Positions 57,194-63,328 of a stretch of DNA of 64,000 nt are shown here, one piece after another (the first letter of the stretch is position 1; the number at the start of each line of letters is the position of its first letter). The stretch is from Bifidobacterium psychraerophilum (GTDB lineage Bacteria; Actinomycetota; Actinomycetes; Actinomycetales; Bifidobacteriaceae), in the NCBI RefSeq assembly GCF_000741705.1, contig NZ_JGZI01000010.1, positions 372,001 to 436,000 of the forward strand, written 5' to 3'. The notes beneath the pieces are model-generated. The model was given only the letters and a program-made list of their open reading frames with translations, did no database searches and was not told the DNA's origin. The position numbers were made by a program, and so were the translations under genes.

Positions 57194-59203
57194 TCATCCA
57201 CGGGTGCTACGCCTCGCACGCACCACCAGGAAAACCGATGACAGGGCCGCGCAGAGCACCACGAATCCGACCGCCCATAGGGATGCCGTGCCTGTGGTGG
57301 CGAGATGGCCGGCACCGCCGCCCCCTTCTCCATCGGATGCCGAGGTGATGGCGCCGGATCCAAGATCATGGCCGCCTGCCGCATCCGAGGATCCAGCTCC
57401 TCGCGGTGGATTGTTTGCCGTGGTATCCGGTGCGGATGAGCTCACCACAGCCGCACGCACTTCGGCTCCGAGACCTTGGGAATCATCGAGCGCCACACCA
57501 CTGACGCGTTGCAGCGCACCGGCCTGCCGTTCCTGGGCATTGAGCACGATCGTCGTCGAACGACCGGGCACTGTGATCCGGGTGTTCGCGGCGACGCTTC
57601 CCGCAGCAATCGTTTTGCCCGCCACGCTTCCTCCTCCGGTGGTCATCTTCACTGATCCGTCATGACCGACCTGCACCGAGACATCCGTCAGTCTGACCTC
57701 GATCGCCGTACCCGGATACAGCAGCAGTGAGGATACGGAGGCTTTGGCCTCTTTGGCATCAACCGTCGAGCTCAGCTTCGTGGCCGATATCTGCCCCGCA
57801 TACCCATCGGTGGCCTCATCCTTGCTGGCGGTGCCGCTGAGGGATTTCGCCTTTGCGCCATCGCCGGACGCCGACAGTGCCACAGGGCTCACCGGAGAAG
57901 GCCCTTGCGCATACAGGCCATAGGCATATCTGCCCGTGGGAACCGCGTCATCGTCAGCAGTGCCATCCGAGGGTGAGGGATCGGGTGTGGGCGTGGGATC
58001 GGGATCCTCATGTGAATCCTGGGCGCTCCAGTGAACCTGTCCAAGTATCACGGATGGATAGGTGCCGGTCAGATCCTCGTAGCGCAGCGCATTGATGGTG
58101 ATGCTGCCATCCTGGTTGACGACGCGCTCATTGAGATACACATGCACCCGGGGTGTTCCATCCGGGGCCATGCCCGTATAGAGGTCGGTTCCGCTGTTGA
58201 TCCACACACCGTTGACGAAGATTCCCGAACTGCCGCCGCTGAGAGCGATGCTTGAGGATCCGTCGGCCTTCACATCCAGCGACAGTCCGTATACACGTAA
58301 GGCGCTCCACATATACATCCCGATATCGGATGTGTCGGGTATCTGTTCGAAGGATTCGACATCGACATGCGATCCGCCATCAGCATCATGCCGGACCGTG
58401 ACGTTCTTGGCAGTCACCGGCACCTCGGTGGAGGTGATGCTCGGCGAGGTGGCGCTGCCCACGGAATCGACACTGGGCTGCCCGTCGATCAGTGTTTTCC
58501 CTGATGGAGAGACGACGGTGACGCCTGAAACGGCTGGCACGGTCTTCTCGGTTTCAGCGGGGGCGCAGCTCACCACGCCCAATTGCACCCGCCATATCTC
58601 CGATGCCCCGGCTTCCGCCTCGATGCGCAGTGCCGTCGTGGTGGTGCGGGAATCCTTGTCGCTTTCGCGTTGCGCGACGTATACGCGGGTTTCGCCGTAT
58701 TTCGACGTCGGCAGATCGTAGGTGTATCCCGAGGCGAGTTTGTCCTGCTGGAGGATGTCGGTGTCGTTCACCTTGAGGCTGCCGAAGGAGACCTCGCTTT
58801 TGCCGTCCCTGGTGCATGAGACCTGCAGATCGCTGAAGGTCACCGCAGGCCGGTCCCTGAGTTGGTAATCCCCGCTGGCAATCGATGCGAAGGCGCCATC
58901 CGATGCCGCCCTGCTCTTCAATTGCTGCGAGCGCGTGGTGTTGAGCTTGAAGAAATCACCGGTCGCGTCCAGATCGTTGCTCACCGTATTACCCGATGAC
59001 CATTCACTGAGCGGTGCCTTCTCCTGTTGGACTCCCCCATCTATATCGAGTATGCGAACGCCATACGCACTGGTGGCGGGAATTTCATCGGCATGTGCCC
59101 TATCCGGCATGAATGCATGGAACATGGCCGCCACGCAGCAGATGACGAGCAGAGCCGCCCCGAAAGCTGTTGAGATACGTCGGATTCTTGTGCTGTCTTT
59201 CAT
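57194..59203 (-). CDS. Sortase-anchored surface protein with repeated beta-rich modules
   Basis: 669 residues. A signal peptide (AALLVICCVAAMFHAFMPDRAHA) is followed by three modules sharing a pattern: RVYVAQRESDKDSRTTTTAL near 175, RVHVYLNERVVNQDGSITIN near 365 and TTIVLNAQERQAGALQRVSG near 555, each leading to a short hydrophobic strand. This resembles the choice-of-anchor P type module of actinobacterial surface proteins, from memory. A linker DPDPTPTPDPSPSDG lies near 420. The C-terminus is a sorting signal: LATTG at 634, hydrophobic stretch, RARR. Its ATG overlaps the protease stop (ATGA), so it is the second gene of that operon. Ligand and function are unknown. Confidence 0.85.
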   Translation of the reverse strand: MKDSTRIRRISTAFGAALLVICCVAAMFHAFMPDRAHADEIPATSAYGVRILDIDGGVQQEKAPLSEWSSGNTVSNDLDATGDFFKLNTTRSQQLKSRAASDGAFASIASGDYQLRDRPAVTFSDLQVSCTRDGKSEVSFGSLKVNDTDILQQDKLASGYTYDLPTSKYGETRVYVAQRESDKDSRTTTTALRIEAEAGASEIWRVQLGVVSCAPAETEKTVPAVSGVTVVSPSGKTLIDGQPSVDSVGSATSPSITSTEVPVTAKNVTVRHDADGGSHVDVESFEQIPDTSDIGMYMWSALRVYGLSLDVKADGSSSIALSGGSSGIFVNGVWINSGTDLYTGMAPDGTPRVHVYLNERVVNQDGSITINALRYEDLTGTYPSVILGQVHWSAQDSHEDPDPTPTPDPSPSDGTADDDAVPTGRYAYGLYAQGPSPVSPVALSASGDGAKAKSLSGTASKDEATDGYAGQISATKLSSTVDAKEAKASVSSLLLYPGTAIEVRLTDVSVQVGHDGSVKMTTGGGSVAGKTIAAGSVAANTRITVPGRSTTIVLNAQERQAGALQRVSGVALDDSQGLGAEVRAAVVSSSAPDTTANNPPRGAGSSDAAGGHDLGSGAITSASDGEGGGGAGHLATTGTASLWAVGFVVLCAALSSVFLVVRARRSTRG

Positions 59204-61038
59204 CGCTGTGCTCCAAATTGCTTAAGGAATGCTGCGCCAGTGGGCACACCAAGTCCTGTGACCGGATCCCAACCCTCCGAGGATTGCAGGCTCTGAGGCT
59301 TGACGTCCCACATATACAGGGTCTCCAACCACAGCTGCCCTGTGTCCGCACCACGGCGATACCAGGTGGCCGCCGATGCTGGACGCACATCGCGTATCGC
59401 CTGCGACCCTGCCATCGAGTAGAGGTAGGGTGTGGCCAGACCGACCTTCACGCCACTGCTCGCCTTGGCAACGGCCACGGTGGCTGCGACCATCGGGGTC
59501 GCCAGACTGGTTCCTCCATGAGCCTCGTACTCCACCGTTCCGTCACTGGGTGAGTACACGGTGAACCCGGTGTTCGGATCCGCAAGAGAGGACACATCAG
59601 GCAGCAGACGTCCGTTGCCGCTTTTGGACAGGGACTTCTGCCACGTCGGACGCGTGTAGTATTTCGATTCTCCACCACCGGCTCCATAGATGAAGCCCGG
59701 AGGAATGATCGCGCCATTGCGGGCGAAGCGGGTCTGCGTCTCCCAGCCGGATTCCACCTCAATGGTGTTGTCGGCGTTCAATCCCGTGCTGGTGCCGCCT
59801 ACTGCGGTCACATAGGGGCTTGACGCCGGTGATGCCACATCGGCCTCTCCTTGATGATCGCCTGCGTTGGTGTAATCACCGTCGTTGCCGGTTGATGCGA
59901 ATACCGAGATATCCCTGGATCCGGCTTCGACGAGCACCCTGTTGAGCAAGGCCCTGTCCCCGTCGGTGTCGAGTTCTTCCTGGGCTCCGAAGGACAGCGA
60001 GATGACGTCCGGCGTGCTCGGCGATTCGACCGCGTCGAGAATCCTCAGATACAGGCTGTTGGTCGAGCAGTCGTTGGCACCCCAATACTCGATATCGGCG
60101 TCAGGGGCTATCGCGTGTGCCGCCTGCACATCAAGATGCTGTTCGGTGGTCCATGCGGCCGATCCTCCGCAGCGGCTTTCATCGGGGGAATCCGGGGCGT
60201 GATGCGTGTATTGGCCCGATCGGAAGGTCTGCGCACCGACCTTGGCGAAATACGTATTGGTGTTCGCTTCCACGGTCGCATCGTCGTATGCCGCGACAAT
60301 CGCGATTCGTGAGCCTTTGCCCGTTGCGGAGGCCGGCAGTTCGTGGATCGCGCGCAGCTGTTCCGGGCCGTAGCCGCATAAGGCGTTCGAACGATATGTC
60401 ACATTCACCGAGGTCGGCCATTGGGATGACAGCTTCTCACCCCAGTAGGCGGCGCAATCATCACTGACCTGCGTCGACGCGGCATTGCCCTGCGTCGATC
60501 GTTGTGCCGGTGAGGCGGTGGTGGCAGGCAAGGCGGCATCGGTATCAACCAGACCGGCGACGCTTTGGACCATGCTCAGATCAGCGGGCACGGAGAGGTC
60601 TCGGCTGGGTGCGACGGCCTGCCGTCCCTCATGTCTGCGCTGGACGAATGTGGTGTCGAAGGCCTGGGCGACGGCACTGCGTTGACCGGATATGCCCAGT
60701 GCGGAGATGTTCTGGTGGATTCGGTCCACGGTCAGCCCCTGCGAGGACAACCAAGCGCGAAGGCTCGTGAGCTGTGACGAGGACGTATCCTCCCGCAGGA
60801 TCAGCGTTGCCGTGATACTGCGGTCATCGTGCACCTGGGTGCCCTGCCGGGACCATTCCGGCGCGGTTCCCGACAATGTTCTGCGTGTACTCGAGGTCGA
60901 CACCTGACGTGCGTATGGGACAGGACCCTTCGGGTCATTCAGGGTACTTCCCCCGAATGCACTCCCCTGGGCCGCGGACAGTGAAGCAAGCACTGCGATG
61001 CAGGCCACCCCACCGGCGAATGAGCGCTTGAGGCGCAT
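59200..61038 (-). CDS. Secreted sedolisin-type serine-carboxyl protease (S53)
   Basis: 612 residues: signal peptide (VACIAVLASLSAAQGSAFG), a prodomain of about 170 residues (ITATLILREDTSSSQLTSLRAWLSSQGL in part) and the catalytic domain. The catalytic Glu 299 and Asp 303 lie in TTEQHLDVQAAHAIAPDAD and the nucleophile Ser 511 in HGGTSLATPMVA; the oxyanion part is SLSFGAQEE. Late calcium-site residues are around AIRDVRPAS and GWDPVTGLGVP. Sedolisins self-activate and work at acidic pH, suiting an acid-producing bacterium. No anchor is present, so it should be released. ATG 61038 has GAGAGGG upstream; the frame open to 61149 is not a signal peptide. Confidence 0.93.
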   Translation of the reverse strand: MRLKRSFAGGVACIAVLASLSAAQGSAFGGSTLNDPKGPVPYARQVSTSSTRRTLSGTAPEWSRQGTQVHDDRSITATLILREDTSSSQLTSLRAWLSSQGLTVDRIHQNISALGISGQRSAVAQAFDTTFVQRRHEGRQAVAPSRDLSVPADLSMVQSVAGLVDTDAALPATTASPAQRSTQGNAASTQVSDDCAAYWGEKLSSQWPTSVNVTYRSNALCGYGPEQLRAIHELPASATGKGSRIAIVAAYDDATVEANTNTYFAKVGAQTFRSGQYTHHAPDSPDESRCGGSAAWTTEQHLDVQAAHAIAPDADIEYWGANDCSTNSLYLRILDAVESPSTPDVISLSFGAQEELDTDGDRALLNRVLVEAGSRDISVFASTGNDGDYTNAGDHQGEADVASPASSPYVTAVGGTSTGLNADNTIEVESGWETQTRFARNGAIIPPGFIYGAGGGESKYYTRPTWQKSLSKSGNGRLLPDVSSLADPNTGFTVYSPSDGTVEYEAHGGTSLATPMVAATVAVAKASSGVKVGLATPYLYSMAGSQAIRDVRPASAATWYRRGADTGQLWLETLYMWDVKPQSLQSSEGWDPVTGLGVPTGAAFLKQFGAQR

Positions 61039-61396
61039 GGATTCCCTCTCTTCTACAAGGTGAGAAAGCTTCGGTACCCGCCTTAGCGTTCGCATGAACG
61101 TTTCCCTTAAGGGATACCGAATATAATTGATAATGATTACAGATATCATTGTAACCTGAGCCCTCTTCCTGCGGATACTCGCGCGTCGCCAGATCCATCG
61201 GAAAGAAAACTGTTGCTTTGTTCACCCTGCGTATGCATCCAGTACCCCTTCAGGACATCCGAAAATGATAGAAACGGCCTTGTTCCGTTTGCGCACCCTC
61301 CCTTGCGAACACCTCGGGCGATTCACCACAAGGGTCGCTCCGCGCCGGGGTGCGCAGGAATGGCATTCGACCAGCACAACCTCATGGAGAACAGCA
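61039..61396. promoter_or_regulatory. Divergent control region of protease operon and anchored phosphatase
   Basis: 358 bp separate the starts of the leftward protease and the rightward phosphatase. Three palindromes occur within 64 bp: CGTTCGCATGAACG (61087-61100), TCCCTTAAGGGA (61103-61114, perfect) and AATGAT-N7-ATCATT (61132-61150). The region between 61115 and 61155 is AT-rich, unlike its surroundings, and holds a TATATT hexamer on the minus strand. The third site resembles the spacing of metal-regulator boxes but is not a good match to a DtxR or Fur consensus. Confidence 0.5.
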
Positions 61397-63328
61397 ATGC
61401 AGAACACACGCCTGCTCACAGGCGCATGCGCCGCCGCGCTCATCGTTTCCGGCTTGGCCGCCAGCACGATCACCACCGCACAGGCATCAGAGCGGAATAC
61501 CTACTACAGCAGCAAACAGCCCTACACCGCTCCAGGCAGCACCGCTTACTCCGCGGCGCCGGCGGGATACCAGCCCATATACTCCGAATCGGTCGCCCGT
61601 CACGGATCCCGTGGACTGTCGAGCTACAAATACGACGCCCTGCTCTTGAAGATGGCAGAGACAGCCTCCGCGGAGAACGGCTTCGTCAGCGAAGCCGCAA
61701 AAGATTCCTTCCTCAGCAACGTCAACGCCATCATCGCCGCCAATGTCGATAACGGCTACGGCATGCTCACAGGCCAAGGCGCCGACCAACACTACGGCAT
61801 CGGCGAACGGGCATACGAGCGCAACAAATCCCTGTTCGACAAGGCCGCCTCAGAAGGCGACAAGATCGCCTACCAGACCTCCGGGGAGGCACGGGCCACC
61901 GAGTCCGGCGAAAACTTCGTCAAAGGCTTCAACACCGCGTCAAAGGGCATACTCGCCACGGATACGGTCTCGCCCTTGAACGCCGCAGGAAGCGGAGCGG
62001 CAGCCATCTTCGACAAAACCCCGGACACGCTGTACTTCCATAAATCCGCGAACCCGGACGGCACCCAGAAAAGCGGAAAGGCGGCCGAGGTCGCCGACGC
62101 ATACCAGGATTTCGTCGACAACAGCACCACGATCGCCAATGCCGAGGACTACATCGAAGGCCTGCCGCGTTCCCAGTCCGCCGCGACGGATCTGCTTTCC
62201 GGCATCTTCACCGCGGACTTCATCTCTTCAATCGGCACGGATTCTGATCACCGCTGGTACAACACCACCGACGGCAAAAAACATGACAAGTCCGAAACGC
62301 AATACCTCAACTGCGCGGCGAACGCCGACCCGCAGCAAGACGAGGATGCATGCGGCGACATGGGCAAATCCATCAAAACAAGCGTCGATGCCGCCATGGA
62401 TCTCTACAATCTCTATATCATCGCCGCGGATATGACCAATGAGAACAACAGCGCGCACTCCTTCGACTTCGACAGCTACTTCGAGGGTCATGAAGCCGAC
62501 GCGGAATGGTTCGCATACATTCTCGACTCCGAGGATTTCTATGAGAAGGGGCCCAGCTACAGCGGCCAGAACGAGACCTACTCCATCGCGCAATCGCTCC
62601 TGGATGACTTCTTCACCTCGATCGACAAGCGGGCTTCCGGCGGAGGCACGGTCGCCACCTTCCGCTTCGCCCACGCCGAGACGATCATGCCATTCGCCGC
62701 ACTGCTGAAGCTGCCGGGCTCCACCACACAGGCACCCGCCGTCGAGCAACCCCAGTCGGAGGATCAGGTATTCAACTACGCCAACAACCCGTGGCGAGGT
62801 GAAAGCGTGACGCCGATGGCGGCCAACGTCCAGTGGGATGTCTACTCGAAAAGCGGCACCGATCCGAAAACCTCACAAGCGTATACGCCGATCGTCCGCA
62901 TGCTCTACAACGAGCAGGAGATCCAGTTCAACGCCTCATGCAAGCCGGTTGCAAGCGGATCGACCTGGTACAAGGAGAGTGAACTGAAACGCTGCCTTTC
63001 CGGTATCGCAACCTCGGAAGATCCCACAATCGTCCAGACATCCGGCAGCGGCAATTCGGGCACCACGAATGGTTCCTCCTCATCCGCACAGGCCGGCGAC
63101 CGGACGAAGTCGACGGCCTCCGCGACGGATGCCGCTTCCTCGGATGGCGGGAAGGCCTCCTCACAGGCAGGGAATACGTCAGCGGGCACGGACAGCCTGG
63201 CCGAAACCGGGACCAGCACCCTGCTGCCGTTCAGTCTCGCGCTGCTCCTTTCCCTCACGGGAGCAGGAGTTCTTATCCTGATCAGCAAACGCCACCAGGA
63301 AGAAGGCGGACATCCCGGATCGCACTAG
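61397..63328 (+). CDS. Sortase-anchored histidine acid phosphatase (phytase/MINPP-like)
   Basis: 643 residues. After a signal peptide (LIVSGLAASTITTAQA) the RHGSRG motif has the nucleophile His 69 with Arg 68 and Arg 72; the distal catalytic HAE is at 426-428 in TFRFAHAETIMP. The long helical insertion between them and the overall length resemble the cell-wall phytases/multiple inositol-polyphosphate phosphatases described from bifidobacteria. The end carries a Ser/Gly/Thr-rich wall spacer, LAETG at 601, a hydrophobic stretch and KRHQEE, a class E-type sorting signal. The predicted role is release of phosphate and inositol from phytate at the surface. ATG 61397 has GGAGAAC upstream. Confidence 0.9.
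   Translation: MQNTRLLTGACAAALIVSGLAASTITTAQASERNTYYSSKQPYTAPGSTAYSAAPAGYQPIYSESVARHGSRGLSSYKYDALLLKMAETASAENGFVSEAAKDSFLSNVNAIIAANVDNGYGMLTGQGADQHYGIGERAYERNKSLFDKAASEGDKIAYQTSGEARATESGENFVKGFNTASKGILATDTVSPLNAAGSGAAAIFDKTPDTLYFHKSANPDGTQKSGKAAEVADAYQDFVDNSTTIANAEDYIEGLPRSQSAATDLLSGIFTADFISSIGTDSDHRWYNTTDGKKHDKSETQYLNCAANADPQQDEDACGDMGKSIKTSVDAAMDLYNLYIIAADMTNENNSAHSFDFDSYFEGHEADAEWFAYILDSEDFYEKGPSYSGQNETYSIAQSLLDDFFTSIDKRASGGGTVATFRFAHAETIMPFAALLKLPGSTTQAPAVEQPQSEDQVFNYANNPWRGESVTPMAANVQWDVYSKSGTDPKTSQAYTPIVRMLYNEQEIQFNASCKPVASGSTWYKESELKRCLSGIATSEDPTIVQTSGSGNSGTTNGSSSSAQAGDRTKSTASATDAASSDGGKASSQAGNTSAGTDSLAETGTSTLLPFSLALLLSLTGAGVLILISKRHQEEGGHPGSH

Follow-up and report, generated by a model that had tools for sequence, protein, structure and literature searches.

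The 64,000-nucleotide stretch of Bifidobacterium psychraerophilum DNA analysed here (contig NZ_JGZI01000010.1, positions 372,001 to 436,000; hereafter the window) belongs to a genome of 2.6 Mb, and the three genes at the end of the window encode proteins with export signals. Two of them encode an S53-like protease of the kumamolisin type and, directly downstream, a protein with a sortase signal that we call the partner. These two very probably form a dedicated partnership, and there is good support for the view that the zinc regulator Zur controls them. We propose that they constitute a zinc-starvation surface protease cassette, a reading to which we give slightly less than an even chance. The third gene encodes a phosphatase.

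We compared the pair of the window's genome (G000) with those found in two other genomes of the genus (G016 and G024), in one of the family (G089, locus L063), in one of the class sample (G344) and in four loci of Agreia (L059 to L062). G089 and G344 were found with the partner as query and the Agreia loci with the protease. Among the 27 genomes of the genus, the protease occurs in three (G000, G016 and G024) and the partner has strong matches in the same three; partner matches in three further genomes (E ~5e-4 to 8e-4) were taken as chance. Within the family, the protease reaches E 1e-10 in four of 189 genomes, the fourth being G089. The partner search returned 15 of the 189, of which the same four were strong and 11 were weak (E 3e-5 to 9e-4) and left out. 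Frames were examined from four loci with weak matches (L045, L048, L049 and L050) and from L077; only that of L048 is recognisable, as a DNA ligase by eye, and the weak matches were taken as chance. The protease search of named genome contigs gave the four Agreia loci, each with a partner directly downstream that is 47-48% identical to that of the window, and a search of named genome contigs with the partner's peptides gave no relatives.

G344 also carries both genes. In all nine loci, among them those of Agreia (four) and of a genome from a different order, the protease comes first and the partner second, and wherever either gene was found at a strong score both were present. The stop of the protease gene and the start of the partner gene overlap as ATGA in eight of the nine, with a short gap instead in G344. 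Across the nine loci, pairwise identities of the protease track those of the partner (r 0.97, 36 non-independent pairs). The pair moves as a unit among distant actinobacteria. An earlier note on this DNA had held that the protease and the anchored protein belong together; we looked for them mostly apart in related genomes and found them side by side at 9/9 loci and in the same 4/189 family genomes. That note had also asked whether the ATGA overlap and the adjacent phosphatase are conserved: the overlap is, but the phosphatase is not kept with the pair. In two Agreia loci, genes with the look of metallophore uptake adjoin the pair, namely FecCD and Peripla_BP_2 genes at L059:2-6509 and ATP-binding cassette (ABC) transporter genes at L062:13047-17822; no such transporter genes were seen by eye in L060 and L061.

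In G024 and G016, palindromes like TGATATTGATTATCA lie 5' of the protease gene. We searched G000, G016 and G024 on both strands for the 15-base consensus TGATAATGATTATCA, allowing up to three mismatches, and found 68, 62 and 134 matches; the reversed sequence, as control, gave 12, 11 and 57. The protease box of G024 is the only one-mismatch site in that whole genome among the matches listed. Since the consensus was picked after the protease box had been seen, a matrix from another organism is the fairer test. The 300 bases 5' of the protease were scored with two matrices, one made from 11 in-genome boxes (the protease's excluded) and one from five published Corynebacterium glutamicum Zur sites. 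With both matrices, the top-scoring site falls 54-95 bases ahead of the protease start in 8/8 loci that have the 5' end, and about 90 bases before it in the window. Dinucleotide shuffles of the 300 bases reach the score in 0/500 cases, except in L061 (3/500 with the in-genome matrix). The boxes score 22-28 in G024, G016, L059 and L062, 20.6 and 19.6 in the window, and 18.0 and 17.2 in G344 (in-genome and C. glutamicum matrix, respectively).

In 187 kb made up of the loci and the window, 11 positions reach at least 16 with the C. glutamicum matrix: nine are at the protease (eight loci, with two overlapping positions in the window), one is at window position 2106 and one is in L061. No position in L063 reaches this score. 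By the in-genome matrix, no position in the window scores higher than the protease box; by that of C. glutamicum, two of 63,980 positions attain its score. The 21-bp Zur box, the mark of the actinobacterial Zur regulon, is present before the protease, in weaker form in the window, where the case for it rests on position and conservation. The other high-scoring site of the window is the palindrome TATTGACAAGGGCTGTCAATA at 2106-2126. It reaches 20.4 by the C. glutamicum matrix but 8.8 by the in-genome matrix, and may be another regulator's.

We inspected chosen best sites among the in-genome boxes. They precede S14/L28 ribosomal protein genes and, divergently, a GTPase-like gene that by eye resembles COG0523 and has a weak match to MRF (25.6 bits for a cut-off of 375). 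Others stand before a Fur-family gene, before an AdcA-ZinT-like gene that exceeds the Pfam cut-offs for ZinT and ZnuA, and before a ZnuA-like gene whose NCBIfam matches stay under theirs; in G016 an ABC transporter gene has one too. The S14/L28 cluster of G024 also contains type B L31. Two inspected sites (L068 and L069) have no zinc-linked gene by eye. Actinobacterial Zur regulons contain genes of these kinds (PMC2823685), and the box-bearing set is in the main the content of such regulons. The best consensus match in the window's genome, with one mismatch, is at L065:2874-2894 (G000:C10 ~85376). By eye, it lies just past the 3' end of a Fur-family gene and precedes a predicted membrane protein with the look of an energy-coupling factor (ECF) transporter S component; a VIT-like gene follows.

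The protease matches the Pfam families Peptidase_S8 and Pro-kuma_activ above cut-off, the latter (37.4 bits, cut-off 23.5) giving it an activation prodomain. Its nearest solved relatives by sequence, among PDB sequences, are kumamolisins (E 1.9e-28, or E 3.8e-31 with a profile), with which it has in common the activation domain and the E-xxx-D and GTS motifs. Aligned to kumamolisin, the catalytic E336, D340 and S548 are invariant in 9/9 sequences (residues are numbered from the open reading frame that starts at 61149). The complete Glu/Asp/Ser set claimed earlier therefore holds for the catalytic residues, but not for the oxyanion Asp (Asp164 in kumamolisin), which is Asn422 in all nine. Because of this replacement we class the protease, from its sequence, as S53-like and divergent. 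It further differs from kumamolisin in its four invariant Cys, its fixed downstream partner and its Zur-type box. Asp587 and Asp628, presumably calcium-site residues, are likewise invariant. In the four Agreia proteases, the signal sequence finishes with LTAC, which by eye is a lipobox. In kumamolisin, Asp164 donates a proton in the oxyanion hole (PMC5935664); with Asn in its place an acid optimum cannot be presumed.

The partner matches no Pfam or NCBIfam family at E up to 10, in scans where the HMMER filters discard most matches above E ~0.1, and nothing credible among PDB sequences. A possible likeness to the choice-of-anchor P domain has no match in the NCBIfam scan (the model's presence in the library was unchecked). 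It consists of strongly diverged copies of one domain: copy 1 resembles copies 2 (P 1.9e-6) and 3 (P 2.1e-4), and the likeness of copies 2 and 3 is weak (P 0.009). Only in this sense is it the repeat protein of the earlier description. Two Cys are invariant among the nine partner sequences. A LAxTG signal ends seven of them; that of G089 reads LVLTG, and that of G344 lacks such a signal. G344 has a second protein with only the partner's third domain (L079, G344:C6 ~351341-351949 on the minus strand, E 1.1e-32), near which there is no Zur-type box (best score 4.0).

In the proposed mechanism, zinc-loaded Zur would repress the cassette. Zinc shortage would lift the repression and give one mRNA for both genes, from which would be made a secreted kumamolisin-type protease and, by translation coupled where stop and start overlap, the wall-anchored partner dedicated to it. 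On the cell surface this partner would hold or position the protease or the protease's substrate, and cleavage of outside proteins would supply zinc-bearing peptides, or the metal itself, to the importers whose genes have the same box. Zinc release from proteins is the likeliest of the purposes considered, though we hold it only tentatively. The fuller scenario is one of proteolytic zinc piracy, where the Zur-repressed surface protease and its own anchored partner cut outside zinc proteins and the cell takes the zinc, with the phytase adjoining in the window's relatives; we regard it as possible and lean against it. Phytase destroys phytate, a zinc chelator. If the cassette is real, a conserved Zur-boxed sedolisin-like protease with a fixed anchored partner would bring the cleavage of external proteins into bacterial zinc acquisition. 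For two uncharacterised proteins it would provide both a partner and a condition, zinc shortage, that can be tested.

Several observations weigh against such a cassette. Neither protein shows a direct link to zinc: no His is invariant among the nine partner sequences, and the Agreia partners have one or two His each. For the same reason, the idea that the partner is a zinc-binding protein of the HxD/HxH type was ruled out. The Fur-family candidates fall below every curated NCBIfam cut-off and are nearest to Fur/PerR models. The box of the window is imperfect, at 20.6 when the training boxes score 28-35, and the C. glutamicum matrix ranks site 2106 above it. As a plain 15-base match with three mismatches it is at chance level, one found and 0.73 expected in 64 kb. 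L060 and L061 score 18.4 and 18.8 with the C. glutamicum matrix but only 12.0 and 9.4 with the in-genome one, and G089, where the 5' end of the protease is missing, is excluded from the count of boxes. The four Agreia loci are close relatives, and in two of them the pair stands beside the metallophore-type transporter genes. Finally, the pair is rare across the class, order and phylum samples (2/394 genomes, G000 and G344, in the first; 1/396, G000 only, in each of the others), and in G344's own family it occurs in 1/159, G344 only.

The main rival to the cassette reading is zinc sparing. Zinc shortage would here bring a switch to a zinc-free serine protease, like the swap of ribosomal proteins; the product would be peptides and the partner a surface holder. 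S53 enzymes need no zinc, the protease and the S14/L28 genes have the box in common and the partner lacks conserved zinc ligands, all of which this account would expect. It leaves the dedicated partner unexplained, and we consider it unlikely. A different role for the pair would be maturation or shedding, with the anchored partner or other wall proteins as the protease's substrate and the surface remodelled in zinc shortage. The fixed pairing, the overlap and the export signals on both proteins (by eye) are consistent with it, and there is a precedent in the mycosin MycP3, which has a processing-type role in a secretion system and which we take to share a subtilase-like fold class with the protease of the window. 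MycP3 belongs to mycobacterial ESX-3, a zinc-responsive type VII secretion system, and zinc starvation induces it in M. avium paratuberculosis (PMC4298942); like the window protease as we read it, MycP3 is an actinobacterial serine protease tied to zinc starvation. However, the window protease fails the mycosin model TIGR03921 (29.3 bits, cut-off 278.75), and in G344 the pair is kept although the partner has no sortase signal. Maturation or shedding is distinctly unlikely.

The remaining alternatives concern the signal and the neighbourhood. The box could be that of another Fur-family regulator responding to iron, manganese or peroxide, as the NCBIfam placement of the examined Fur-family proteins would suggest. 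This is very unlikely given that the box genes include S14/L28, AdcA-ZinT-like and ZnuA-like ones and that the box matches the published C. glutamicum Zur sites. The earlier note had instead joined protease, partner and phosphatase, around a shared control region, in a surface system that would work in acid and release nitrogen from peptides and phosphate from phytate. All three genes do occur in the same 3/27 genus genomes, close together. Yet the phosphatase is divergent from the pair only in the window, being codirectional with it in G024 and G016. In the family, 19 of 189 genomes have a phosphatase of this kind (MINPP), and the pair is absent from 16 of them; G089 carries the pair but yields no MINPP match. 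On distribution and orientation we reject a divergent module, and neither a place for the phosphatase in the system nor a shared control region is supported. We found nothing for an acid nitrogen and phosphate role, which is extremely improbable with a conserved control site of the zinc type.

Known Zur regulons comprise importers, GTPases, ribosomal proteins free of zinc and surface proteins that bind it; in mycobacteria they extend to a secretion system together with its protease. C. diphtheriae has the Zur-linked wall proteins ZnuE/F/G and CmrA with HxD/HxH zinc motifs (PMC12445094), and three LPxTG genes of C. pseudotuberculosis are Zur-linked (PMC3022926). These are zinc-regulated surface proteins, some of them sortase-anchored, as we propose for the partner; unlike those of C. 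diphtheriae, the partner has no conserved HxD or HxH, and PMC12445094 names no protease. The cyanobacterial exoprotein for zinc uptake ZepA (PMC10957091) is also Zur-controlled and exported, with a C-terminal sorting signal. It differs in being a small single protein whose histidines are proposed to bind zinc, and the accessible part of that paper mentions no protease partner. Subtilisin-like secreted proteases are named in PMC3022926, with no tie to Zur in the portion at hand. Our literature searches showed no Zur-linked sedolisin, and neither did the available portions of the Zur review PMC6103462 and of PMC3022926, PMC11753293 and PMC4298942; MycP3 comes nearest. Proteolytic zinc piracy was likewise not found among the described Zur regulons.

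The coordinates of the features are collected in Table 1. The open reading frames as given span 57194-59203 (-), 59200-61149 (-) and 61265-63328 (+). These frames, the ATGA overlap and the LATTG and LAETG anchors, all claimed previously, are present in the sequence. Two of the gene extents need correction: from the relatives and from ribosome-binding-like sequences, the start of the protease moves inward from 61149 to 61038 and that of the phosphatase from 61265 to 61397.

Table 1. Features at the end of the window (coordinates in the window).
Feature	Coordinates	Strand	Remarks
S53 sedolisin/kumamolisin-like protease precursor	59200..61038	-	signal peptide (by eye), Pro-kuma activation domain, catalytic domain
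Partner protein	57194..59203	-	signal peptide (by eye), three diverged domains, sortase signal
Partner domain 1 (residues 40-218)	58550..59086	-	invariant Cys130 and Cys213
Partner domain 2 (residues 219-395)	58019..58549	-	from copy comparison
Partner domain 3 (residues 422-600)	57404..57940	-	more diverged than the other domains
LATTG sortase motif of partner	57290..57304	-	read in the sequence
ATGA overlap of protease stop and partner start	59200..59203	-	kept in 8/9 loci
Two overlapping imperfect Zur-type operator sequences	61125..61151	none	21-mers 61125-61145 and 61131-61151
Sortase-anchored MINPP-type histidine phytase	61397..63328	+	neighbour, outside the conserved pair
LAETG sortase motif of phosphatase	63197..63211	+	present in the sequence

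The phosphatase matches the PDB chain 6RXD (E 2.3e-201) and His_Phos_2 (56.5 bits, cut-off 23.6). The motifs ARHGSRG and AHAET, read in its sequence, are the RHG and HAE of histidine phosphatase branch 2, so that its previous description as an anchored RHG/HAE phosphatase is borne out. The chain 6RXD is the MINPP of B. longum, which also has a sortase signal (PMC7762957); there is no notable difference between the two, and the protein of the window looks like an ordinary MINPP phytase. With the C. glutamicum matrix, no Zur-type box precedes the phosphatase gene in G024 (best 8.8) or G016 (best 2.0). In G016, a large gene lies between phosphatase and protease (L013:2296-4986, minus strand), and its product ends in LATTG by eye. 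At G104:C2:350233-352146 and G143:C5:6229-8149 the phosphatase genes contain an internal stop or are split into several pieces, and so look to be decaying.

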